A stretch of DNA of 64,000 nt. It comes from Ideonella alba. GTDB taxonomy: Bacteria > Pseudomonadota > Gammaproteobacteria > Burkholderiales > Burkholderiaceae_C. Below are positions 5,645 through 48,888 of the stretch, piece by piece (position 1 is the stretch's first letter; each line of letters opens with the position of its first letter). Under the pieces are notes generated by a model. It had not been told where the DNA came from. It saw nothing but the letters and a program-made list of their open reading frames with translations, and did not search any database. Made by a program: the position numbers and the translations under genes. The stretch spans positions 1 through 64,000 of the forward strand of contig NZ_JAGQDF010000013.1 in the NCBI RefSeq assembly GCF_018069875.1. The letters are read 5' to 3'.

Positions 5645-6341
5645 TCAGTGGTTGGCCAGGGCGGGCGTGTCGGGCAACACCATCGCGTGCTGCAGCCCCC
5701 AGTGCTCGACCGCGGCCACCAGCACCGCCGATTCGGCCTCGGCGACGAACTCGTCGGACTGGGCCAGCGCCACGCACAGGCTCAGCAGCCGGCGGCGCAG
5801 CGCGGGGTCCTGGATCTCGGCCATCAGGTCGGCCAGCGTGCGCTCGTCGAAGGGGCAGATGTCGGGGTCGACCCAGTGGCCCACCTCGCGCAGCTCCTTG
5901 ATGTGGGCGGCCAGCAAGGCCAGCAGCGAGGAGCGCGACAGCCCCAGCGACTGGTGGACGGCGTGCCGGTCGAGCCAGTTCAGGGCCTGTTCACACGACC
6001 GGAAGGGGTTGCGAAGGCCTGCAGAAGCGGGCCAATCTAGGCGCAGCGCGCCGCCCGCACTCACGTGCGGGCAAGCGATGCAACGACGAGTGGCCCGCTT
6101 CGGCAGGCCTTCCCGCAGGGTTGATGTTCAGAGAGGCCGCATGCGGCGTTGCACCCCTCGCCGGGTATCCAACCCGGCTGCGGTGTGCGCCTTGCCTGCG
6201 GCCTCTCTGAACATCAACGCAATCCCTTCCGGCCGTGTGAACAGGCCCTCGCTCGGCGGGATCGACCAGGCCGTCGGCGGTGGCGGTCAGCGCCAGGATG
6301 CGGGCGGCGGCCTGGGGGCTGTCGATGGGGTAGCTGCGCAT
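5645..6341 (-). pseudogene. TerB-like (tellurite-resistance family) gene split by a palindromic element
   Basis: The 5' part starts at the ATG at 6341 after GAGGAG and encodes MRSYPIDSPQAAARILALTA plus TADGLVDPAER, ending near 6250. The 3' part resumes near 5981 as NWLDRHAVHQSLGLSRSSLL and continues to the stop at 5645. The joined product of about 142 residues looks like a small helical TerB/DUF533-type protein, with the acidic turn VDPDICPFDERTLADL and a final helix ALAQSDEFVAEAESAVLVAAVEHWG. Between the halves sits a self-complementary insertion. Removing 5982-6249 restores a single frame (AER-NWLD). As it stands, translation from 6341 runs into the element and stops near 5991. The family call is tentative; the disruption is directly visible. 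Confidence 0.7.
5982..6249. mobile_element. MITE-like element with 32-bp terminal inverted repeats and two internal hairpin arms
   Basis: The terminal inverted repeats at 5982-6013 and 6218-6249 match at 30 of 32 positions and begin AGGGCCTGTTCACACG. Inside are two further arms. Arm 1 pairs 6014-6034 with 6091-6111 (20 of 21) and encloses a perfect 8-bp hairpin at 6053-6072. Arm 2 pairs 6120-6140 with 6198-6218 (21 of 21). Nearly the whole element can therefore fold as a three-way junction. It carries no gene of its own and interrupts a TerB-like gene. No clear target-site duplication is seen; the flanks share at most TC(A/G). Confidence 0.75.
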
Positions 6342-6564
6342 GGCGTGTCTCCTCGGTGAAGGGGGGCCGGCAATCGCCGGACGGCTGGAATGTGGTGGTG
6401 GCTCGGGTGCGGAACCAGCAGGCTTTTCCGCGCAGGGGCTTCGAAAAACCCGGCCGCCACGCCTTGCGGGAAAACCGAAGCCTTGTTCAGGCCCGACCTG
6501 GCTTGTGCCGCGCCGCCCCGCCCCCACACTGCCGGGATTCCTGGTCCTTCACCCCTGACACACC

Positions 6565-6966
6565 ATGCTTTACGCCCTCAGCTGGCTGCTGGTCGCCGTT
6601 GTTCTTGCAGGCTGGTCCCTGCTGGTCTGGGCCGTGCATGCGCTGGCCACCTGGAGCCTCAACAGTGCCGGCGCGATGGCCGGCAACCCCGAGCCGGGCA
6701 GCCTGCTGTCGCTGCCCGCCTGGCTGGCCGACTGGGTGCCGCTGGACCTGGTGGGCGCACTGGGCCAGCTGGTGGCCTGGTTGGGCCCGTGGGTGGATGC
6801 CACGCTGTCGGCCGCCCCGGCGCTGGCCACCGGCCTGACGGTGCTGAGCTGGGTGCTGTGGGGCCTGGTCAGCCTGCTGCTGGTGCTGCTGGGCGCCGGC
6901 CTGCACGGGCTGATCGCGCTGTGGCAGCGGCGCGCGCCGACGCTGGCCGCCGGTGGCGCCGCATGA
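6565..6966 (+). CDS. Small membrane protein of unknown function
   Basis: A 133-residue hydrophobic protein with an N-terminal membrane segment (about residues 4-28), an amphipathic middle (about 50-80) and a second hydrophobic segment near residues 93-117, ending in a short basic tail (WQRRAPT). I do not recognise a family. Its stop overlaps the ATG of the ExoD-like gene (ATGA), so the two are probably translationally coupled and may act together at the membrane. Confidence 0.7.
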   Translation: MLYALSWLLVAVVLAGWSLLVWAVHALATWSLNSAGAMAGNPEPGSLLSLPAWLADWVPLDLVGALGQLVAWLGPWVDATLSAAPALATGLTVLSWVLWGLVSLLLVLLGAGLHGLIALWQRRAPTLAAGGAA

Positions 6967-7562
6967 CGCCGCCGATCGCGCAGCGCCTGCGCGACGCGGC
7001 CGCATCGGTCGGCCGCGAGCGGGTGTCGATGCAGGCGCTGGCCCAGGCCCACGGCCCCGAGGCCCAGGGCACGCTGCTGCTGCTGCTGGCCATGCCCTGC
7101 CTGCTGCCGGTGCCGGGGGTGGGCACGGTGCTGAGCCTGGGCATTGCTGCGCTGTCGGTGGCCATGTGGCGCGGCCACGGCGTGGGCCTGCCGCCGCGGG
7201 TGGCGGCGCTGAAGCTGCCCGGGGACTGGGCGCGCCGGGTGCTGCACGGCCTGGCCACCGCCTATGCGCTGGCCGGCCGCCATGCGCGGCAGCGCCTGGA
7301 CACGCTGACCGCCGAGCGCTGGCACCCAGTGCTGGCGGCGGTGGTGGGCCTGATGGCGCTGATCGTGCTGCTGCCGATTCCGTTCGGCAACCTGCTGCCC
7401 TCGCTGGCGCTGGTGCTGATCGGCCTGGGCTTGGTGTTCCGCGACGGGCTGGCGGTGGCCCTGGGCCTGGCCGGCGCCGCGCTGGCGGTGCTGGCCACGA
7501 CGGGCCTGGTGCTGTGGGCCTGGACCTGGGGCAGCGACTGGGCGGCGCGCTGGATCAGCTGA
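6963..7562 (+). CDS. ExoD-family membrane protein
   Basis: The 199-residue protein matches the ExoD (exopolysaccharide synthesis) family by its N-terminal helical region (ERVSMQALAQAHGPEAQG) followed by LLLLLAMPCLLPVPGVGTVL. Further hydrophobic segments include GLMALIVLLPIPFGNLLPSL and a C-terminal pair. In Sinorhizobium, ExoD affects exopolysaccharide production and alkali tolerance, but its biochemical activity is not known. The ATG at 6963 overlaps the previous stop. The frame is open far upstream, but that stretch is not coding. The gene converges on cbbX with four bases between them. Confidence 0.8.
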   Translation: MTPPIAQRLRDAAASVGRERVSMQALAQAHGPEAQGTLLLLLAMPCLLPVPGVGTVLSLGIAALSVAMWRGHGVGLPPRVAALKLPGDWARRVLHGLATAYALAGRHARQRLDTLTAERWHPVLAAVVGLMALIVLLPIPFGNLLPSLALVLIGLGLVFRDGLAVALGLAGAALAVLATTGLVLWAWTWGSDWAARWIS

Positions 7563-36930: not shown

Positions 36931-37302
36931 GGTGCTGTGATGTTAGGACAACGTCGTAAGAAACAGGCGGAATGGCGATATTCGGGATCTGGCGGTCGTG
37001 GGTTGCGCACCGTCAAATAGTGCGTGGTGCGGGCACCGGTGAATCGCACCAACATTCAACAACCGTAAACTGCTGTCCGGACTTGCATTCAGGTCGGTAT
37101 TCTGTTGCTCCCCCGGGCTAGGCGGTCTCATGGTCTCCGGAACGGCAAGAAGGTGGGAGCGAGTCAATTGCTTGCCGGCATCTGGCGCCCCGTACGGTGA
37201 TGGCTTCTCAGACACGTCAGCCCCGTCTCTGCGAGCGGTCTACCGGTGCACTTGTGGGGACGACCTCTCCACGACAACAATGACAGGGCATACAGGCAAG
37301 GG
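36931..37302. other. Intergenic region between hydrolase and cyclase-ATPase genes
   Basis: These 372 bases lie between two divergent genes and contain no convincing coding sequence. GC content falls visibly from about 37010 onward, marking the left edge of the lower-GC islet. No sure promoter or operator was recognised. An in-frame GTG at 37246 could extend the downstream gene by 19 residues. Confidence 0.5.
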
Positions 37303-40161
37303 ATGGACGGACGACAAGTGGCTTCGCAGACAGGAGCGAGAGTACCGGCGCGCAGACGACATTTCTTGACGCTACTCTTCACTGATCTCAGCGGCTCCAG
37401 CACGCTCGCGGGCCTGTTGGAGTACGAGATATTGGCCGCGCTGCTTGACCGTGTGCATGACGTCGTGAACGACGCAGTGGTTAGGCATGGTGGGCGAGTG
37501 GTCCGCACGCAGGGTGATGGGAGCTTGGCCGTGTTCGGCTATCCGCGGCCTGGCGAGCATGACGCGCGTCATGCATGCCAGGCAGCACTGGAGGCGCATG
37601 CAGCTGTGGCAGCGTTGCCGCCTTTGAACCTGCCCGGCGGGCAGCAGCGTCTTGCTCTGCACTCGGGCGTCCATTCCGGCCTGGTATACGTCGCCCCTGG
37701 AAACGGAACGCGAGGCGATCTTGACGTCGTGGGTGATGCTGCGAATACGGCCTCCCGGCTTGCGTCCTGCGCCGGTCGGGGTGGCTTGCTTGCTGACGCC
37801 GACTCGCTGGGCCCCGAACTGGCCTTCTTCGATACTGACAGTCTGACTGATTTGGCTTTGCCGGGACGAGCAATCCCGATCCGGGCTGCTCAGGTGAAGG
37901 CAGTGGCCGCGCTTAAACGCCGCATCGACGCCGAACGCAGCCGTGGCCAGTCGCCGCTATTAGGCCGCGAGGACACACTTTCGCGTTTGGTAGACGGTTG
38001 TACACGATCCGACACGGTGCATCGGGTCATTGCCATTCGTGGACAGGCGGGGATTGGCAAGACGCGGCTTCTCGACGAGTTAGCCAGCCGTTTGAACCAG
38101 TTGGGCGTTCGGACGCTACGCGGAGGTTGTGAGTCCTTCGGCATAACGCCCGTGCTGGCGCCCTTTCGCCAGCTACTAGGTGCGGACGCCGACAGCCGTA
38201 AGTCCGCCACCGAAGACGACGTGCGCGACGCGGCACTCCAATGGCTGCGCGCCTGCGACGATGGCCGACATGTGATGCTACTCGATGACTGGCAGTGGGC
38301 CGACGATGCCTGTCGGGCGCTTCTCGACGAGGCGCTGCGCACGACAGTGCAACTCCGTGTTGTGCTCGCGTCACGTCACGCCGGAGACGTTGAAACCTAC
38401 CCTGATGGTCCCACCGTTTGTCCAATGCCGTTGAGGCGTGAGGAAACGCTTCGCTTGGTTCAGGCCTGGGCACCCGGCACCAGCCCTTTCGTCGCGGACG
38501 AGTTGCACGAACATGCTGGCGGTGTACCGCTACTTGTTGAGGAACTCTGCCACATGCTCCGCCACCGTGGCGAGCTCGGCTGGAAGCAGCTACGCGCGGC
38601 AGGCGCCCGCGGTGGAGCAAGCCATTGGATGAAATCGATGATGGCAGCACGTCTGGAGAGCTTGGCTGAGCCGGCAGTCCGGGTCGTGCAGGCTGCCGCT
38701 GTCGCCGGTTTACGCGCTCCACTGAATCTCTTGACCGACCTGCTCGGTCACGCGCCGACGCCGGACTCGCTGAAACAGTTGGCCGATGCGGACCTGCTGT
38801 ATACCAGTGACGATGGCGCGGCTCGCTTCCGGCACGGTCTGTCACGCGACGCGGTATACGAGCTGATTCCGCTCGATCGCCGAGAAGACCTGCACCGCCG
38901 CGCTGCTGAGCACCTTGAGGGCAATCCGGGCGGCTCTCTGCGGCCGCTTGAGCGAATGGAGGCACTGGCGCACCATGCCCGCGCTGCAGGTGACTGGGCG
39001 CTGGCCACGCTGCGCTGCGAAGCTGCCGCCGATGCCGCCGTGCCACTGGGCGCCTACGACAGCGCTCGTCGGCAGTACTTGGCCTCCATTGAGTGCGCCG
39101 AGTTCGCTGGCCTTGTCGACACAGGTTCGACGCGGCGATGGTGCACGCTGGTGCATCGGCTCGCCATGACTTGCATGTTCGACCCGCTGGCCTCGCCTGA
39201 GGCGTTGGTGCTCGCCGGCCGGGCAGTCGCGACGGCGCGTACGCTGGACGACGCCGAGTTGCTGGCCCGATCTTTGTACTGGGAGGCGTACTTGCTTTAC
39301 GTCTATGGCCACCCGAAAAAAGCGACGCGACGGTCCTACGAAGCGGCCACCCTCGCGGCAGCGCTAGACAACGGCCGGCTGTTGGCGCAGGTGCAGGCCA
39401 CCTACGGCCAGGCGCTCGCTGCCATCTGCCGCTATGAGCCAGCGCTGGAAGCAATGCATCACGCGTTACGCGCCAAGCAGACGAATGCAAGACACAGCGG
39501 CGCGCTCGCCATCGGTTCTGCGTTCACGCTCGCCTGCCGCGCCAGCGTCCTCGCCGACCAGGGAGACTTTGTCGCCGCCCACGCGTCGCTGGACGAGGCG
39601 CGGACACTGGTCGCAGCCCAGCCGAACCACCCAGTGGCCGACTCCGTCCGCAACTGGGAAATGGTGATACTGGCCTGGGAGGCGCGTTGGGCCGACGTCC
39701 GAGGCGTGGTGGCCGCGACGGCCGAGTCTGCGCAGCGCCTGCATGCGCTGCTGCCGCTGGCCATCGCGCGCGCTGTTGACGGCTACGCACGTTGGCGGCT
39801 GGAGCGCGATGACATGGCGATTGTCCAGACGGAAGAGGCCGTGCGCTGGATGGAGAATCACCATGTCCTGTTCTTCACCTCCATCTACTACGCTTGGCTG
39901 GCTGAGATGGCTGCCGACACGGGCCGTGACGCCGACGCCTGGCGCTGGACGGCCTGCGTGCTGCGGCGCTCGCGCGCCGGCGAGCGGTTGGGCGAGGCAG
40001 TAGCGTGGCGCGCGATGGCGCGCGTCTCCGCTCGCCAGGGCGACCAACTGCGCGCGTGGCGACGCCTGGGGCACGCTGAGCGTGCGGCCGCCCGGCGACG
40101 GTCGATACGAGAGGCAGCGCTCAACGTCTCGTTGCGCGCCGAGCTTCAGCAAGGCCGCTGA
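37303..40161 (+). CDS. Class III nucleotidyl cyclase-AAA ATPase-helical repeat signalling protein
   Basis: A 952-residue protein. Residues 20-200 form a class III adenylate/guanylate cyclase domain with both metal Asp (LLFTDLSGSS, Asp28; TQGDGSLAVF, Asp72) and the transition-state Asn-Arg pair (NTASR, Asn148 and Arg152), so it may be active. Residues 215-480 are an AAA16/STAND-type ATPase with Walker A IRGQAGIGKTRL (about 245-256) and Walker B HVMLLDDWQWADD. The remainder is TPR-like helical repeats. The same arrangement occurs in many soil bacteria, usually with unknown ligand. The ATG at 37303 with AGG/GGG upstream is preferred to the GTG at 37246. It runs toward the large peroxidase-P450 gene, ending eight bases from it, and shares its lower GC. 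Confidence 0.87.
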   Translation: MDGRQVASQTGARVPARRRHFLTLLFTDLSGSSTLAGLLEYEILAALLDRVHDVVNDAVVRHGGRVVRTQGDGSLAVFGYPRPGEHDARHACQAALEAHAAVAALPPLNLPGGQQRLALHSGVHSGLVYVAPGNGTRGDLDVVGDAANTASRLASCAGRGGLLADADSLGPELAFFDTDSLTDLALPGRAIPIRAAQVKAVAALKRRIDAERSRGQSPLLGREDTLSRLVDGCTRSDTVHRVIAIRGQAGIGKTRLLDELASRLNQLGVRTLRGGCESFGITPVLAPFRQLLGADADSRKSATEDDVRDAALQWLRACDDGRHVMLLDDWQWADDACRALLDEALRTTVQLRVVLASRHAGDVETYPDGPTVCPMPLRREETLRLVQAWAPGTSPFVADELHEHAGGVPLLVEELCHMLRHRGELGWKQLRAAGARGGASHWMKSMMAARLESLAEPAVRVVQAAAVAGLRAPLNLLTDLLGHAPTPDSLKQLADADLLYTSDDGAARFRHGLSRDAVYELIPLDRREDLHRRAAEHLEGNPGGSLRPLERMEALAHHARAAGDWALATLRCEAAADAAVPLGAYDSARRQYLASIECAEFAGLVDTGSTRRWCTLVHRLAMTCMFDPLASPEALVLAGRAVATARTLDDAELLARSLYWEAYLLYVYGHPKKATRRSYEAATLAAALDNGRLLAQVQATYGQALAAICRYEPALEAMHHALRAKQTNARHSGALAIGSAFTLACRASVLADQGDFVAAHASLDEARTLVAAQPNHPVADSVRNWEMVILAWEARWADVRGVVAATAESAQRLHALLPLAIARAVDGYARWRLERDDMAIVQTEEAVRWMENHHVLFFTSIYYAWLAEMAADTGRDADAWRWTACVLRRSRAGERLGEAVAWRAMARVSARQGDQLRAWRRLGHAERAAARRRSIREAALNVSLRAELQQGR

Positions 40162-40169
40162 GGGTAGGC

Positions 40170-43100
40170 TCAGGGAATGGGCACCAGCAACGGCGCCAGC
40201 GCTTCTTCGTGCAGCCGCTGCGCCAGCGCCGCAAAGCCAGCACGATTGGGGTGCATCTCATTCTTCCAGACCCCCTTAAAGCCGTGCTGGGCGAACGCTG
40301 GCGTTGAGGCCAATACACCAGTCAGGCGGACGAAGCGGGCGTTGACGCCGTCCTTATCGACCAAAGTCTTCACCGTCTCGGCGTAGCCAACATTCAGCGC
40401 ATCGATAAAGGTCGCCATTGCGCGGGCGTTGTCTTCTAGTTTCGTCAGCTTCTTACGGAGAAAGGCCGGCTGCAGCGAAGGACACATAGCCTTCCGAACG
40501 CCAGTGCCGTCGGGATAAGGGTGGTCGTAGGCCTGGACGATCACTGGCACTCGACCTTCACCCGCACGATGTAGCTCAGTCACAATGAAGTGAAGGTGCT
40601 GCTGCATCAAGGCGACGAAGGGTTGCAGATTGCCCGGGTCACCGAGTACCTTGTCGAGCACCGAGCCGACACCCTGATTCTCGCAAAATGGGAAAATGTG
40701 AAGTCCGCCACCAGCGCCATCTACAAAGTCGTTTCCACCCCCACCCACCAACACAGCCAACGGCGGCGACCCATCCTTCAGCAGGTTGCGCAGCGTCGCG
40801 TAGACGGACGCACCGCTGCCCACCAATTGCTTCCTCATATGGGCGAGTTGGAAGCCCTGCTTGGCGTGGTTGGGAAGTGCAAACATGGAGGTGTCGTAGC
40901 CTAGCGTGGCGAGGGAGCGCATGAAATCAGAGCCTTCGTCCTCTATCTCCCACTCGAAGCGCAGCCAGGAGTCACCGAATCCCAGCAGCTTGCGGCCTTG
41001 TCCGGGTCGCTCGTTCATCACCTCCAGTCGGTCCGAGAAAGTGACCACCCCGCTGGACCGATCGATGAACCCTCGATACAGCAGGCTACCCGCCGCAGAG
41101 GGTTCGAGCTGACCCTGCGACGGCGCGAGCAGTGCCGCCAGAGTACCCACCATGGCCCCCATGGCAGCAGCGTAGCCCGGGCAAGCGTGGGTGGGGCCAC
41201 CTTCCTTACGGGCGCCACCAAAGAGACCGGAGACGTCGCTATCCTCGCCCTGTTCGAGTTGCGCGTGCAGCGCCGACACCTGTCCAAGCACCAGCTTGTC
41301 GCCTGGGCGCACCTCGATGCTCGTGTCCGCCGTGCCAGCCAGTCGGTGCGCCACTTTCGCTTCCCGCCACACTTGTTCCGGCACCGGCCGGAACTTCATG
41401 GCGCGTCTCAACGCCGGCGCAATGATCGCCTCTGCCTCCTTCCATTCTTCGAGCTTGGCCACCCCAGCGGCACCAAAAAGGTCAAGCAATGTGTTGTCGC
41501 GAGTCCACTCGGCCAGCACGCGCCGAAGCAAACCTTCTGTCGTTGGGAGAAAGCCCATCATTGCGCCGGCAATGGTGTGGACCGCATCCTGCGGCCGCTC
41601 TTCCCACAGGTCCTCAAGCACGGCGCGCGTGATTGGGTTCGAAGCAAAAGCGCCCACGCTCTTGGCCTCTATGAATGCACGCAACGCCCGAGTCAACGCA
41701 GTACCGTGCGCGGCAGCAACGCGCATCACGGCCTCCGACGGATCGGGCTGAAAGGTGGCCCGTGACGCGGCGGTGAAGTGGCCAGGGTAGTTGACGACGT
41801 CGCCCGGGAGCCATTCGGGATCCAGCGCGCCGCGTCGGAAAAGCTGAGGTTTGCTGTCCTCATTGATCCCGAACCAAGTCTCGCAAAGCGTGGCAAGCGT
41901 CTGCGTGACGAGGTCGCGGACGTCGATCGCGGCCTCCCATACTTTGCTGTGGTTGTCCGCCGCGACCATCACCGCATAACTGATCCAACCATCGAGTACC
42001 GCTTTCGCCGCCAAGCGCGCGTCATTGAAGGCGCGTGCCATGTCGATCGACTGGATCGCTTGGTTGCAGGCGGCCGATAGCAGCGTGTAGTCGGGATCGT
42101 CAGCATCACGTCCCAGGAATATCGGTCCCATGCCAGCGCTGACCAGCCGGCGGCGGTAGCCGGACACCGTGTACCGCGCCTCGTCCTTCAGGACGGCGGC
42201 CACTGTCTCGGGGGCGGCGACGAGCACGCCATAGGGGATGCGAAGCACGCCGTCATGCAGTTGGCGCACCGCAGCCCAAATTGAGGCGGCGTCGAAACGG
42301 GCGAGTGGCCGCGGATCCTCTAGCGCCGCCTTCCAGGCCGCTGCGGCGGCATCGGTGCCTTCTTCGGCCTCGGTCCGATGCAACTGCGCGATCAGCGCCC
42401 GCCCACGCTCGGCCGACCACGGCAGGGCCGCGGCAGCGGCGCCAACGCCGCGAGCAATGGATGCCAACCTTACCTGGCCAGCGCGCGAAGGCGCGAAGGC
42501 GTAGATGCCCCACTGCAGTGCGACCAACGGCTTAGGCTCGAGGCCCAGGTCATCGTCGCCGTCGAGAGCGACTTGGATGCTGCGATTACCGTCCAGGTAG
42601 CGGAAACGGCGCACGCGACCAACCTCGGGCACACCGAGGAATGGACAGGCAGCCCTTGAGTAGGCGCGCGAACTGTTCCCGCCGGCCAGCCAGCCCTGAA
42701 CGACCTCGAACTGCTCCGCCAGGCTCGCGTTGTAAGCCATGAAGACGAGGCCGCGGTCAGCACTGTCGTCGCGGCCATCCTCAGGCGGCGGCGGCCCGTA
42801 GGGCAGGCTTCGGCGCATCAGGCGCGGCGGGCGGGCACCGGGCGCGGGCTGAGGGAAGTCATCCTCCAGCACAGACCCGCGAGGGTTGGCACGGCGGACG
42901 TGGGCCGCCAGCGGCGTGGTGTCGCCATGCTCGTCGCCACGGTAGTCGAAGTCGTTGATGTCAGCGGACAGCAGTGGCGCCAGCGGAAGGCCGGCCTGCG
43001 ATTTGCCGGCGTCGGCTGGCCAACGGCCCATCAGCTTGGCGCGCAGCAGGGCGTCGGCCACAGAGTCACCGCTAGCAGCTCGCTCAACAGCGCGCCGGAA

Positions 43101-44837
43101 GCCGGCCACGTCCTGGCGCAGCTTACGCACCGCGAGGAAGCTGCCGTTGCACATCAACGCCGAAAGGTCGGGGTCGCGCCGGATCGCGAGGTCACACTCG
43201 CGGTCGGCAGCGTTCGCGTAGCCGACCAGCACCTCGCCCATGTGCACCTGGCTCTTGTACGGCGCCGTCGCCTGCGGATCGCTGTCGAACACCGGCTGTG
43301 ACTGGCCGTCGGTGTAGCCGAAGTGGTCGACGGCGCTGCCGTTGTCACCCATGCGGCGGGCCATCCACTGCACCGAGAGCGGCGTGACGCCCGCGAAATT
43401 GGAAAGGCTGCGGATCGCTTCAGACAAGGCATCGATGGCGCCCGCGCGAACGCCGGCAGCCGGCCGCGCCCGGAACTGCACGATGGCGTGAACGGTCTCA
43501 AGCGGCAGCGGCGGCAGTGCGGCGTCGACGCGATCTGGGTTCGGGTCCAGAGCGCCGTTGCGACGCGGCAGCGTCCAGCGACGCGGATGGTTGCCGCGAA
43601 CGTCGCCCAGTAGGCCGGCCCGCGCCGCCATGCCTTGGCGGAACTCCAGCGGCCAGCTTTCCAGCTGTGCCGCCGACAGACCACAGGCGCGCAGCCCCTC
43701 GAACGTCAGCGCGAAGTTACCGAAGACCTTGGCGCCGGGCGCATCGGCGTCACCCTCCAGACTAGGCCGGAAGCCTTCCAGGAAGCCAGCCGCCGACGCC
43801 GGATTGGCGAAAGCCACCAGCACCATCGCGCCATCGGTCACACCATCGTAGGCTCGTAGGATGCCGCTCTGAACCTCATTGGCGGCTCGGTCCCACGACG
43901 CGCGCTCGGGCAGTGTTGTGCCCCCCCGCGACGGCGGAGCTTCCCCAAGCCCCGTGCCAAACCACTTTAGGCGCTGCGCCATTTGTGGGCCACCCGCGTA
44001 AGCGATTACCTGCGCCAGCTGGAGGTTGAAGGGGCTGCCGAGCGCGTCGGCAAGCTGGGGAAGCATTTCGTGCGCGGCTCGGCGGAGCACGTCTCCGTCC
44101 ACCGTTTCAGAGGGATAGCTGTCGATCAGCCGATACAGACCGGTCAGCGCCGCGAGGTTCTGGCGAAAGGCCTCCTCGCGCGCGAGCGGACCTTTTGCCG
44201 CAGTGTTGTCGTCGCGTCTCGTCGGATCGACCTGGTCCTTCAAGATCCGCCACGCGATCTCCTCGGCGGTCGGCGTCGCTAGGCGCGTCCGCGCCGTCTC
44301 GTCGCCAGGGTCACCGCGGTCGCGGGCGTGGAACATGGTCAAGTGTGTCTGGTCGGCGTAGGTAAGGCCGGGCGTCGCGTAGAAGAACGGCGTCGGCACT
44401 TGCACCGAGCGGATCCAGGCGTTCCAGTCGTCAAAAGGGTGGTCCCAGCCAGTTACGTAGCCCTCGGCGTTGCAAAAGATCAGATCCAGCAGGCGAGCAG
44501 CCCGTTGCCAGATCGTTCGCGCGTAGGCCTCGTAGGAGCCATCGAAGTGCACGGAGAGGAGGATTCGGTCGTCGGCAGGGCGGCGACCTTCGACGACCGC
44601 CACGCGCAGCGAGCGAATGACGCCGACGCGCTCGACGGCATCGGAGACAGCCCTTAGCAGTCGGTACTCGTGCTGGCCCTGGCGTCCGGCGTGCAGCATT
44701 TCAAGCAGCATCTGTACGCGGCTCTTGTAGGTCAACGTGTCCAGCGCCGGCACAAAGCCAGATCGAATAGGCGCCATCACAAGAAGCTCCGTCGAACCAG
44801 ACAGGCTAGGTGTACGCACCTCAAATTCGGGTTGCAT
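40170..44837 (-). CDS. DyP peroxidase-cytochrome P450-SGNH hydrolase triple fusion
   Basis: The 1555-residue product has three enzyme regions. After an N-terminal region of about 280 residues (possibly ferredoxin-like), residues 290-745 look like a DyP-type haem peroxidase. They contain GYTDG at 507-511 with catalytic Asp510, AAHVRRANPRG with likely proximal His646, and RLMRRSLPYG followed by RGLVFMAYNASLAEQFEVVQ. Residues 845-1240 resemble a cytochrome P450, with helix-I-like AGAMMGFLPTTEG and PALRRAMKFRPVP. The haem-ligand Cys1219 lies in GGPTHACPGYAAAMG. Residues 1283-1550 form an SGNH/GDSL hydrolase: GFGDSW (Ser1290), GGGGND (Asn1369) and NEMHPN (His1529). No signal peptide is seen. The ATG at 44837 has GGGAG upstream; a longer start is weaker. 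Oxidation of a lipid-like substrate followed by ester cleavage is inference only. Confidence 0.85.
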   Translation of the reverse strand: MQPEFEVRTPSLSGSTELLVMAPIRSGFVPALDTLTYKSRVQMLLEMLHAGRQGQHEYRLLRAVSDAVERVGVIRSLRVAVVEGRRPADDRILLSVHFDGSYEAYARTIWQRAARLLDLIFCNAEGYVTGWDHPFDDWNAWIRSVQVPTPFFYATPGLTYADQTHLTMFHARDRGDPGDETARTRLATPTAEEIAWRILKDQVDPTRRDDNTAAKGPLAREEAFRQNLAALTGLYRLIDSYPSETVDGDVLRRAAHEMLPQLADALGSPFNLQLAQVIAYAGGPQMAQRLKWFGTGLGEAPPSRGGTTLPERASWDRAANEVQSGILRAYDGVTDGAMVLVAFANPASAAGFLEGFRPSLEGDADAPGAKVFGNFALTFEGLRACGLSAAQLESWPLEFRQGMAARAGLLGDVRGNHPRRWTLPRRNGALDPNPDRVDAALPPLPLETVHAIVQFRARPAAGVRAGAIDALSEAIRSLSNFAGVTPLSVQWMARRMGDNGSAVDHFGYTDGQSQPVFDSDPQATAPYKSQVHMGEVLVGYANAADRECDLAIRRDPDLSALMCNGSFLAVRKLRQDVAGFRRAVERAASGDSVADALLRAKLMGRWPADAGKSQAGLPLAPLLSADINDFDYRGDEHGDTTPLAAHVRRANPRGSVLEDDFPQPAPGARPPRLMRRSLPYGPPPPEDGRDDSADRGLVFMAYNASLAEQFEVVQGWLAGGNSSRAYSRAACPFLGVPEVGRVRRFRYLDGNRSIQVALDGDDDLGLEPKPLVALQWGIYAFAPSRAGQVRLASIARGVGAAAAALPWSAERGRALIAQLHRTEAEEGTDAAAAAWKAALEDPRPLARFDAASIWAAVRQLHDGVLRIPYGVLVAAPETVAAVLKDEARYTVSGYRRRLVSAGMGPIFLGRDADDPDYTLLSAACNQAIQSIDMARAFNDARLAAKAVLDGWISYAVMVAADNHSKVWEAAIDVRDLVTQTLATLCETWFGINEDSKPQLFRRGALDPEWLPGDVVNYPGHFTAASRATFQPDPSEAVMRVAAAHGTALTRALRAFIEAKSVGAFASNPITRAVLEDLWEERPQDAVHTIAGAMMGFLPTTEGLLRRVLAEWTRDNTLLDLFGAAGVAKLEEWKEAEAIIAPALRRAMKFRPVPEQVWREAKVAHRLAGTADTSIEVRPGDKLVLGQVSALHAQLEQGEDSDVSGLFGGARKEGGPTHACPGYAAAMGAMVGTLAALLAPSQGQLEPSAAGSLLYRGFIDRSSGVVTFSDRLEVMNERPGQGRKLLGFGDSWLRFEWEIEDEGSDFMRSLATLGYDTSMFALPNHAKQGFQLAHMRKQLVGSGASVYATLRNLLKDGSPPLAVLVGGGGNDFVDGAGGGLHIFPFCENQGVGSVLDKVLGDPGNLQPFVALMQQHLHFIVTELHRAGEGRVPVIVQAYDHPYPDGTGVRKAMCPSLQPAFLRKKLTKLEDNARAMATFIDALNVGYAETVKTLVDKDGVNARFVRLTGVLASTPAFAQHGFKGVWKNEMHPNRAGFAALAQRLHEEALAPLLVPIP

Positions 44838-45094: not shown

Positions 45095-45733
45095 ATGCTT
45101 AGATATCACACCATCCCCGTCACCGGCTTCGCCCAAAACTGCTCCCTGCTCTGGTGCGACCAGACGAACGAAGCTGCCCTGATCGACCCCGGCGGCGATC
45201 TGGACGTGCTGAAGGCCGAGGTGGCGCGCCGCGGCGTGAAGCTGGTGGCGCTGTGGCTCACCCACGCCCACATCGACCACGCCGGTGGCACCGGCCAGCT
45301 GGCACGCGAGTTGGGCCTGCCAATCATCGGCCCGCACGAGGGCGATCAGTTCTGGATCGACGGCCTGCCGCAGCAGAGCCAGATGTTCGGCTTTCCGAAG
45401 GCCGAACCCTTCACGCCCACGCGCTGGCTACATGACGGCGACACGGTCACGCTGGGTCAGTCCACGCTGAACGTGCGCCACTGCCCCGGCCACACGCCCG
45501 GCCACGTGGTGTTCCACAGCCCCGAGATTCAGCGCTGCTTCGTGGGGGACGTGCTGTTCGCCGGCTCGATTGGTCGCACCGATTTCCCCGGTGGCAGCCA
45601 CCCGCAGCTGATCGACAGCATCACCCAGCGGCTGTGGCCGATGGGCGATGCGACGGTGTTTATCCCGGGGCATGGGCCCGAGAGCACGTTCGGCGAAGAG
45701 CGGCGCTACAACCCCTACGTCAAAGGCACCTGA
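45095..45733 (+). CDS. Metallo-beta-lactamase-fold hydrolase (glyoxalase II-like, YcbL type)
   Basis: A 212-residue cytoplasmic hydrolase with the metal-binding motif THAHIDHAGG, then CPGHTPGH, the bridging Asp in FVGDVLFAGSIGRTDFPGG, and the final His in IPGHGPES. It lacks the C-terminal substrate domain of classic glyoxalase II and matches the shorter YcbL/GloC-type enzymes that hydrolyse thioesters such as S-lactoylglutathione. GC returns to the genome norm here, marking the right edge of the islet. Confidence 0.88.
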   Translation: MLRYHTIPVTGFAQNCSLLWCDQTNEAALIDPGGDLDVLKAEVARRGVKLVALWLTHAHIDHAGGTGQLARELGLPIIGPHEGDQFWIDGLPQQSQMFGFPKAEPFTPTRWLHDGDTVTLGQSTLNVRHCPGHTPGHVVFHSPEIQRCFVGDVLFAGSIGRTDFPGGSHPQLIDSITQRLWPMGDATVFIPGHGPESTFGEERRYNPYVKGT

Positions 45734-45880: not shown

Positions 45881-46621
45881 ATGAACACCCACACCCCGTT
45901 TCCCGAGCCGGCACGCCGCCCGCACGCCGGCGGCGCCTGGCACCAGCCCCTGCCCTACAGCGGCCCCGAACGCCGCCAGGCCAGCCTGACCATGGCGCGC
46001 CTGTTGGCGCAGGTGCTGGACGAGATCGACTACGGCCTGGTGCTGCTGGCCGATGCGCGCCAGGTGCTGCACGTCAACCACGCCGCCCGGGCCGAGCTGG
46101 GCGAGGACCACCCGCTGCAACTGCTGGGCGGCGAGCTGCGCGCCCGCGACGCCAAGGACGTGGCAGCGCTGTTCGACGCCGTGAACACGGCGGTGACCAA
46201 GGGGCTGCGCCGGATGCTGTCGATTGGCCAGGGCGCGCAGCGCATCAGCGTGTCGGTGGTGCCGCTGGGAGGCCTGGCACCCGGTGCCAACAGCCCCGCC
46301 GGCGCGCTGCTGGTGCTGGGCCGCCGGCAAGTGTGCGGTGCGCTGAGCATCCATGGCTATGCGCGGGCCCACGGCCTGTCGGACCATGAAGAGCGCGTGC
46401 TGCGGCAGCTGTGCGACGGCCTGACACCCACCGAGATCGCCGACCGCCATGGCGTGAAGATCGCCACCGTGCGCACCCAGATCGCCTGCATTCGCGCCAA
46501 GACCGACACGCCCAGCATCCGTGAGCTGGTGCAGTCGGTGGCGATGCTGCCACCGATGATGAGCTCGCTGCGCTTGATGGGCGTCGACTTCCTGTGTACC
46601 CCCCAGCGTCTGGCAGCTTGA
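45881..46621 (+). CDS. LuxR-family regulator with an N-terminal PAS-like sensor
   Basis: A 246-residue protein. Residues 40-150 resemble a PAS domain (LDEIDYGLVLLADARQVLHV, NHAARAEL). The C-terminal LuxR/GerE helix-turn-helix covers LSDHEERVLRQLCDGLTPTE and continues with IADRHGVKIATVRTQIACIR at about residues 168-210. There is no receiver domain. GGAGGACAGCG precedes the ATG. Signal and targets are unknown; it may control the lipoprotein gene 28 bases downstream. Confidence 0.8.
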   Translation: MNTHTPFPEPARRPHAGGAWHQPLPYSGPERRQASLTMARLLAQVLDEIDYGLVLLADARQVLHVNHAARAELGEDHPLQLLGGELRARDAKDVAALFDAVNTAVTKGLRRMLSIGQGAQRISVSVVPLGGLAPGANSPAGALLVLGRRQVCGALSIHGYARAHGLSDHEERVLRQLCDGLTPTEIADRHGVKIATVRTQIACIRAKTDTPSIRELVQSVAMLPPMMSSLRLMGVDFLCTPQRLAA

Positions 46622-48246: not shown

Positions 48247-48888
48247 ATGGCAAGTGACGCATGGCTTGGGGTCTTTTCTGCATCCGTTCGTCCATTGGCA
48301 GCCCGTGGCGAATTGCGCCGCTACCGCAAGGGCACGCTGCTGATCCAGGAGGGCGACCAAGGCGACACGCTGTACCTGATCGCCAGCGGCCGCCTGCGCG
48401 CCTTCTCGGCCGCTGACAACGGCAAGGAGATCACCTACGGCACCTACGGCCCTGGCGAGTACCTGGGCGAGATGAGCCTGGACGGTGGGCCGCGCTCGGC
48501 CAGTGTCGAAACCCTGGAGGCCAGCGAGTGCGTGGTGGTGACACAGCGCACGCTGCTGGCCCACATCGCCGATCACCCCGAATTCGCACTGGAGCTGCTG
48601 GCCAAGGTGATCCGCCGCGCGCGCGCGGCCACGTTGTCAGCGCGGCAACTGGCACTCAACGATGTCTACGGCCGGTTGCGCGTGCTGCTGGAGGAACTGG
48701 CCGGTCCGCCGGATGCACAGGGGGTGCGCGTGATCGGCGAGCGGCTGACGCATCAGCAGATGTCCCAGCACCTGGGATGCTCGCGCGAGATGGTCAGCCG
48801 GGTGATGAAGGACCTGGAACGCGGCGGCTTCGTGGATACCAGGGACAAGGCGTTGTGCTTGCTGAAGGCGCTGCCGTCCCGGTGGTAA
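48247..48888 (+). CDS. Crp/Fnr-family transcriptional regulator
   Basis: A 213-residue regulator with an N-terminal cyclic-nucleotide-binding-type beta barrel (LLIQEGDQGDTLYLIASGRL, GPGEYLGEMSLDGGPRSASV) and a C-terminal winged helix. The recognition helix is CSREMVSRVMKDLERGGF, which matches the RE..SR pattern of CRP rather than FNR. No N-terminal Cys cluster is present, so it is not an oxygen-sensing FNR. The barrel keeps GEMSLDGGPRSA, close to the cAMP phosphate-binding cassette, so a nucleotide ligand is plausible. Confidence 0.87.
   Translation: MASDAWLGVFSASVRPLAARGELRRYRKGTLLIQEGDQGDTLYLIASGRLRAFSAADNGKEITYGTYGPGEYLGEMSLDGGPRSASVETLEASECVVVTQRTLLAHIADHPEFALELLAKVIRRARAATLSARQLALNDVYGRLRVLLEELAGPPDAQGVRVIGERLTHQQMSQHLGCSREMVSRVMKDLERGGFVDTRDKALCLLKALPSRW

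Follow-up and report, generated by a model that had tools for sequence, protein, structure and literature searches.

The gene at 40170–44837 of the window, which is the whole stretch of 64,000 nucleotides of Ideonella alba DNA that was analysed, joins two different haem enzymes, a DyP-type peroxidase and an unusual cytochrome P450, to an esterase. It forms a conserved pair with a neighbouring cyclase-AAA gene. The enzyme probably oxidizes a lipid-like molecule in a manner known mainly from fungi, corals, and cyanobacteria, and the cyclase-AAA protein is a probable producer of a signal molecule. The fusion enzyme is real, conserved, and, to the extent of these searches, undescribed; no DyP–P450 fusion is described in the papers listed by searches on DyP–P450 and peroxidase–P450 fusions and on DyP with cyclases, in a collection with few subscription journals. 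The mechanism proposed for it is moderately supported. The features of the window are as follows.

40170..44837, minus strand: fusion gene (N-domain, DyP, P450, SGNH), 1555 aa, a single intact open reading frame
43884..44837, minus strand: N-terminal domain, residues 1–318, with its core at about profile positions 67–175
42438..43886, minus strand: complete DyP peroxidase, residues 318–800, with D510, H646, and R675
41052..42335, minus strand: divergent cytochrome P450, residues 835–1262, with Cys1219, an I-helix GFLPT, and RAMK at the ExxR position
40173..41030, minus strand: SGNH/GDSL hydrolase, residues 1270–1555, with Ser1290, Asn1369, and His1529
37246..40161, plus strand: class III cyclase-AAA partner, 971 aa, tail-to-tail with the fusion gene
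45881..46621, plus strand: LuxR-type regulator, 246 aa, GerE 1e-5, a likely but unproven component
48247..48888, plus strand: Crp/Fnr-type regulator, 213 aa, 3.5 kb from the pair, a likely but unproven component

The fusion gene is read on the minus strand from an ATG at 44837 to a stop codon at 40170–40172. A Shine-Dalgarno-like GGGAG lies directly 5' of this ATG, and the start is also backed by MQPEFEVRTPSL, which is conserved in the full-length relative L002. An earlier note, made from the sequence alone, had placed all three catalytic signatures in one frame of 1555 residues. The open reading frame is intact, and the residue numbers of that note are all correct (GYTDG at 507–511, Cys1219 in HACPG, Ser1290, Asn1369, and His1529). 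The DyP–P450–SGNH fusion is real, its domain assignments are correct, and the same architecture is present in other genomes, since the fused triple occurs in six other genomes or records, L002 among them. No frameshift was found, and an assembly join is ruled out by L002, which aligns end to end at 65% identity. Chance or artefact is ruled out by co-linear homologues in many genomes. Because the domain calls hold and the architecture occurs elsewhere, none of the outcomes that the note had named as fatal to the fusion (failed domain searches, a broken or joined frame, an architecture seen in no other genome) came about. The picture it drew was nevertheless incomplete, as it missed the N-terminal domain and the conserved cyclase-AAA pairing, and the fused esterase is confined to one clade.

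Relatives of the fusion enzyme occur in about 40 genomes or records. Within the window's family, 34 of the 399 genomes searched encode an N-DyP-P450 protein (the window's own genome is counted, and one copy is split by a stop). A search of 399 genomes of the order added 2 from other families, and the genus gave one more. Outside the order, the protein is represented by a Sphingopyxis plasmid copy without the N-domain and by genomes G1210 and G1573. The type I loci number 39 (36 fetched neighbourhoods plus the window, L002, and L070), or 41 with L125 and L154. Of the 39, 28 were placed in A1, the main alignment, which omits L070 (truncated), L077 (split), and L104 (contig end), as well as L082, L084, L087, L089, L092, L100, L101, and L102, for which similar loci were already in the alignment. 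L002, a metagenome-assembled genome, bears the label Bordetella parapertussis, and this species name looks doubtful. The Sphingopyxis copy (L070, 12025–14514, plasmid NZ_CP102385.1) is a DyP–P450 protein without the N-domain, and its start adjoins a Tn3 transposase; cyclase-AAA and Crp/Fnr genes come next, and a type I secretion set lies further along the plasmid. A viral origin was rejected, as phage records gave no match to the enzyme and a scan of viral contigs with the N-domain gave no relative. Upstream of the fusion gene, at 45095–45733 of the window, lies a gene of the metallo-beta-lactamase fold that is also found near the L086 and L096 loci (73–77% identity) and may reflect host synteny.

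The DyP domain of the window protein was matched by NCBIfam TIGR01413 at E 2.7e-18, which is under the curated cut-off of that model, and by a phmmer search of the PDB at E 9e-26. The Pfam scan of the peroxidase part matched Dyp_perox_C only. The DyP family profile aligned with the whole of DrDyP (8RE3) at E 4.1e-71 over profile positions 2–444. Among the A1 members, the GxxDG Asp (D510) is kept in 27 of 28, and the proximal His (H646) and distal Arg (R675) are kept in all 28; the window domain holds all three. These residues indicate a DyP-type peroxidase, whose H2O2-dependent activity is predicted only. To our knowledge, the natural roles of DyPs are largely unknown. The N-terminal domain is an undescribed fourth domain that accompanies DyP; the core of this domain, at about profile positions 67–175, recurs either next to DyP or fused with it. 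A profile search of the PDB with this domain gave no match up to E 5. Two-sequence AlphaFold models were poor (mean pLDDT 34 for the P450 and 43.5 for the N-domain), and the beta-alpha-beta order in the poor N-domain model can be taken only as a hint toward a duplicated DyP half. That origin was rejected, as a profile comparison of the N-domain with DyP gave nothing.

The third domain, by its profile matches and haem loop, is a cytochrome P450. The window protein gave no P450 match in Pfam or NCBIfam, and PF00067 matched 0 of the 28 A1 members. A profile of the 28 members gave 55 PDB matches at E ≤ 1, the best at 0.0024. Fifty-four of these bear a P450 name or are known P450 proteins; the other match is labelled only 'Decarboxylase'. 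By hhalign, this profile aligned with the type II P450s (A9, the P450 part of five of the six P450-N-DyP proteins) at E 1.1e-15 and a probability of 98.6, and with ten ordinary P450s of related genomes at E 4.7e-6 and a probability of 86%. A9 in turn matched solved P450s at E 9e-29, and the A9-type set has Pfam p450 matches to 2.4e-15. The domain contains an FGxxHxCxG-like loop with a Cys haem ligand, in which F1206, G1207, G1208, H1217, C1219, and G1221 are each present in 28 of 28 members, as is HAC. In the domain searches advised by the earlier note, DyP was found by single-sequence scan; P450 and SGNH did not appear in the Pfam and NCBIfam scans of the window protein and were found by family profiles.

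Several features set this P450 apart. In the I-helix motif GFxPT, Pro stands at the acid position in 26 of 28 A1 members and Thr is kept in 27; we take this position, where an acid is usual, to correspond to D251 of P450cam. The Glu of ExxR is present in only 3 of the 28 members; the window reads RAMK at this site and lacks the motif. The P450-N-DyP (type II) relatives share GFxPT and retain ExxR. A few true P450 families are without ExxR, and its loss therefore indicates an unusual P450, not a non-P450. No reductase or redox partner is fused to the domain. The altered I-helix and the frequent lack of ExxR point away from an NADPH/O2 monooxygenase; together with the missing fused partner, they would suit a peroxide- or hydroperoxide-using P450.

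The SGNH domain was matched by Pfam Lipase_GDSL_2 in 4 of the 28 A1 members (best 1.3e-11). Its blocks are invariant in nine of nine sequences, with S21 (the Ser of GDS), G59, N100 (the Asn of GxND), and H260 in domain numbering; in the window protein, an Asn stands three residues and a Glu two residues before the His. Against the PDB, the best GDSL-named match of the SGNH profile had an E of 0.0028, the top match (4.6e-4) was a designed protein, and a few weak matches, such as DnaK, are chance. Of the 41 type I loci, 10 have an SGNH domain or gene: it is fused in the window, L002, L071, L072, L073, L075, and L125, and is a separate gene in L076, L077, and L105. In a tree of 28 rows, the eight SGNH carriers all fall within one 9-member clade (100/100), to which the fused esterase is limited.

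Acyl hydrolases of several unrelated folds accompany the enzyme. Patatin-like genes of one family lie 17–62 bp upstream and co-directional in six other type I loci (L086, 6068–8134; L090, 5733–7877; L097, 2–2494; L103, 12147–14105; L104, 3014–5188; L106, 6194–8086). The three that were scanned matched Pfam Patatin at 6.4e-16, 2.4e-11, and 4.7e-6, of which 4.7e-6 narrowly misses the cut-off. The patatin loci stand at two places in the same tree (L086 with L090; L097 with L103 and L106), so loss or repeated gain must have occurred. The SGNH and patatin-like sets are disjoint, and 25 of 41 type I loci have neither. Among the distant loci, an LCAT gene lies next to the P450 in L155, a patatin gene beside L156, a DUF676 esterase in L130, and an oleate hydratase (E 4.5e-196) in L122. 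The upstream genes of four loci with neither hydrolase matched, by Pfam, a CoA-transferase, DUF7092, an AAA kinase-like protein, and a sigma-54 activator. Non-lipid neighbours also include alpha-amylase, galactarate dehydratase, subtilase, methionine synthase, glycosyltransferase, TonB receptor, and amidohydrolase genes, among others. These hydrolase neighbours are raw counts, uncorrected for the background frequency of lipases, from the chosen genes that were scanned.

The partner gene encodes a Guanylate_cyc domain (6.9e-9), an AAA_16 domain (2.4e-13), and a long C-terminal part that is TPR in the relatives L070 and L158. A cyclase-AAA gene adjoins the enzyme in 38 of 38 type I loci with usable flanks (39 minus L104, which is cut by the contig end), tail-to-tail in 37 and divergent in one (L077). 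In 30 of the 37, no more than 125 bp separate the two genes; a separate SGNH gene lies between them in L076 and L105, and the gap is 1.7–5.5 kb in five. The 37 pairs are not independent events because some loci are closely related. L154 contributes an additional tail-to-tail pair. At L125, the 1.36 kb remaining on the contig has no cyclase, and its genome (G1210) has one on another contig (E 6.5e-125), as does the genome of L104 (G413, E 1.1e-77). A survey of 60 related genomes at E ≤ 1e-30 found the cyclase family only in G000, G015, G026, and G028, which are exactly the four that carry N-DyP-P450, a coincidence with a chance of 1 in 487,635 if the two were independent. The metal-binding Asps are conserved in 37 of 38 cyclases, Walker A and B in all 38, the substrate-binding Asn in 33, and the Arg in 31; the Asn and Arg losses mean that a few cyclases may be inactive or altered. 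Membership in Pycsar was rejected, since the cyclase only weakly resembles PycC models (2e-10) and the neighbouring haem fusion matches no PADLOC model.

Regulators lie near a part of the pairs. Of the 39 type I loci, 13 contain a Crp/Fnr homologue, which in 10 of them is no more than about 300 bp away from the pair. A LuxR-type homologue occurs in 13 type I loci, the window and L104 included, and these are mostly the same loci. These are raw locus counts, uncorrected for genome-wide frequency. Crp/Fnr homologues also occur in four of the six P450-N-DyP loci and in none of the seven split N-DyP loci with catalase-like or RoxA-like partners.

Split, reordered, and operonic variants of the enzyme were found when the N-domain was searched in the class (321 genomes), the phylum (349), and two further groups (190 and 121), some genomes being drawn twice. 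This search gave 17 loci besides L125 and L154, and DyP adjoins or is fused to the N-domain in every distant locus except L157, which ends at a contig end. Six loci encode P450-N-DyP fusions (L128, L129, L131, L132, L133, and L135). The neighbour of each fusion is a TPR protein, always of the same family, with a detectable cyclase domain in four of six. In L155, the N, DyP, and P450 genes are consecutive and followed by the LCAT-like gene, all co-directional; in L156, the N gene is followed by a fused DyP-P450, with the patatin gene divergent; and in L158, cyclase-AAA-TPR, P450, and N-DyP stand in series. In six further loci (L122, L123, L124, L127, L130, and L134), N and DyP are accompanied by a catalase-like gene, whose profile matched catalases at E 1.3e-4 and the coral allene oxide synthase 1u5u at E 9e-4. 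The catalase-like proteins keep Arg-x-x-x-Tyr in six of six, and Asn stands at the distal His position in three, so these partners are not simple catalases. In L126, a RoxA-like cytochrome c (5888–7279) is encoded near N-DyP. A second haem protein is thus present in all 16 complete N-DyP loci that are not of type I (P450 in 9, catalase-like in 6, RoxA-like in 1). A di-haem cytochrome c family, to which the RoxA-like protein might be related, includes Pseudomonas oleate-diol synthases (PMC4496055). A 502-aa protein in L130 (9627–11132) has two copies of the N-domain core, with a similar tandem in L157, and a TIR-domain gene in L134 (6098–6973) lies about 1 kb from the N-DyP-catalase-like set. 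At E ≤ 1e-15, no cyclase was found in any of the six catalase-type genomes. At the same threshold, the divergent cyclases beside P450-N-DyP in G1267, G1370, and G937 were also unmatched (G937 had no match at all), and G1430, G1588, G1267, and G1370 have 5 to 9 cyclase matches elsewhere in the genome. The cyclase neighbour is therefore weaker evidence in the P450-N-DyP loci than in type I.

From these data, a bifunctional two-haem enzyme can be proposed that would make and rearrange lipid-type hydroperoxides, with a hydrolytic third domain and a tie to cyclic-nucleotide signalling. We favour this reading tentatively and judge its chances to be nearly balanced. We infer its substrate class, reaction, order of steps, and direction of signalling as follows. 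DyP and its partner N-domain would act on an apolar substrate, probably an acyl lipid, and turn it into a hydroperoxide or a radical product. The P450, with no fused redox partner and without the usual acid and ExxR, would rearrange or peroxygenate the hydroperoxide made by DyP. The SGNH domain may cut an ester (or thioester) and so free the substrate or product, a role that the patatin-like lipase would take over in other lineages. The tail-to-tail cyclase-AAA protein would sense something and make a cyclic nucleotide, and the Crp/Fnr and LuxR-type regulators stand beside a part of the loci. The hydroperoxide reading is backed by the conservation of catalytic residues at both haem sites across 28 diverse members, by the unusual I-helix and ExxR sites of the P450, by the recurrence of these parts in other arrangements, and by the second haem protein in 16 of 16 distant loci, which mirrors known hydroperoxide systems. 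It is weakened because DyPs, which belong to the chlorite-dismutase superfamily, normally act as H2O2-dependent peroxidases and not as dioxygenases (PMC4420034), and because DrDyP is inactive at physiological pH (PMC10820274). The lipid reading is backed by the recurrence of acyl hydrolases of unrelated folds and weakened by the 25 type I loci that lack both an SGNH and a patatin-like gene. The earlier note had drawn an analogy with fungal Ppo/LDS enzymes; it gains contextual support from the peroxide-type features of the P450, the accompanying lipases and esterases, and the catalase-like protein that replaces the P450 in six distant loci, but the chemistry is still conjectural. A wider proposal is a bacterial oxylipin-type signalling system, in which a lipase would free an acyl chain, N-DyP would oxygenate it, the P450 or catalase-like protein would rearrange the product, and the dedicated cyclase-AAA protein, with Crp/Fnr and LuxR-type regulators, would couple the system to cyclic-nucleotide control. 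A DyP fold would here take the place that COX-like or lipoxygenase folds have elsewhere. The proposal is possible but rather doubtful.

An alternative reading is a peroxide cascade on an aromatic compound or secondary metabolite, in which DyP performs classical one-electron peroxidase chemistry, the P450 acts on its product as an H2O2-using peroxygenase, and lipids are uninvolved. The DyP active site is that of a normal peroxidase, the P450 is without monooxygenase features, and GMC oxidoreductases, which can make H2O2, are encoded near two distant N-DyP loci (L124 and L130). The recurring SGNH, patatin-like, LCAT, and oleate hydratase genes speak against this cascade, as does the lack of a biosynthetic set among the inspected type I neighbour clusters, not all of which were identified; we consider it unlikely. 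Less likely again is a sensing or conflict (defence-like) system, with the cyclase-AAA protein as a STAND-type sensor and the haem enzyme as its effector or as the maker of the sensed signal. The two-gene module, its patchy distribution, the plasmid copy beside a Tn3 transposase, and the constant pairing with an AAA-type ATPase and cyclase speak for such a system, and the PycC resemblance agrees with it; that resemblance, however, may be general class III cyclase homology only, and the enzyme has neither a PADLOC match nor a copy in any phage record. Broad detoxification, in which organic peroxides or xenobiotics would be destroyed under oxidative stress and cyclic-nucleotide control, could use two haem peroxide-type enzymes, an esterase, and, at other loci, a catalase-like partner, but it is the least probable of these readings, since three of the six catalase-like partners have Asn at the distal His and hence are not simple catalases, and the narrow conserved fusion suggests a defined substrate.

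If the favoured two-haem hydroperoxide reading is true, the enzyme would represent a second, unrelated invention of the fungal oxylipin-type peroxidase–P450 plan, arising from DyPs. With the exchangeable haem partner (P450 or catalase-like), the undescribed N-domain, the constant cyclase, and the lipases that recur beside them, the natural substrate of an entire group of DyPs becomes directly testable, and the fusion family may offer reductase-independent P450s.

Parts of the pair can be compared with several known systems. The cyclase-AAA partner matches the TOMM system kinase/cyclase fusion (TIGR03903) at residues 327–948 with 129 bits; it differs in being far under the cut-off of 705.75 and in having no kinase domain in the Pfam scan. 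The class C/V-type DyP of Deinococcus radiodurans (DrDyP; 8RE2, 8RE3) is the closest solved relative over the whole DyP domain and shares the GxxDG motif, proximal His, and distal Arg expected of DyPs. Its solved chain is a single DyP of 445 aa, whereas DyP is one of four domains here. The cyanobacterial catalase–haem dioxygenase fusion (PMC11719350) and the fungal haem dioxygenase–P450 are known hydroperoxide systems. The cyanobacterial fusion and the coral allene oxide synthase–lipoxygenase resemble the present enzyme in that their oxygenating enzyme is joined to another haem protein, one that acts on hydroperoxides, and the likeness extends to the six distant N-DyP loci whose catalase-like neighbour resembles catalases and the coral enzyme. 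In contrast, the oxygenating unit here would be DyP, and the window has a P450 instead of a catalase-like protein. The fungal LDS/Ppo enzymes (LDS, DOX-AOS, and DOX-EAS) have the same two-haem chain, with an N-terminal enzyme of haem peroxidase fold and a C-terminal P450. Fungal LDS-type P450s likewise have no fused reductase and retain an HxC haem motif, HAC included (PMC13049297); the motif is HAC here, where action on a hydroperoxide without a reductase is predicted, and the likeness is one of plan and motif. True membership of the LDS/Ppo family is ruled out, as the first enzyme domain is a DyP of a separate superfamily and is not COX-like. The fungal peroxidase belongs to the COX superfamily and the present one to the DyP/chlorite dismutase superfamily, and the present enzyme is bacterial, carries additional N-terminal and SGNH domains, and is partnered by a cyclase.
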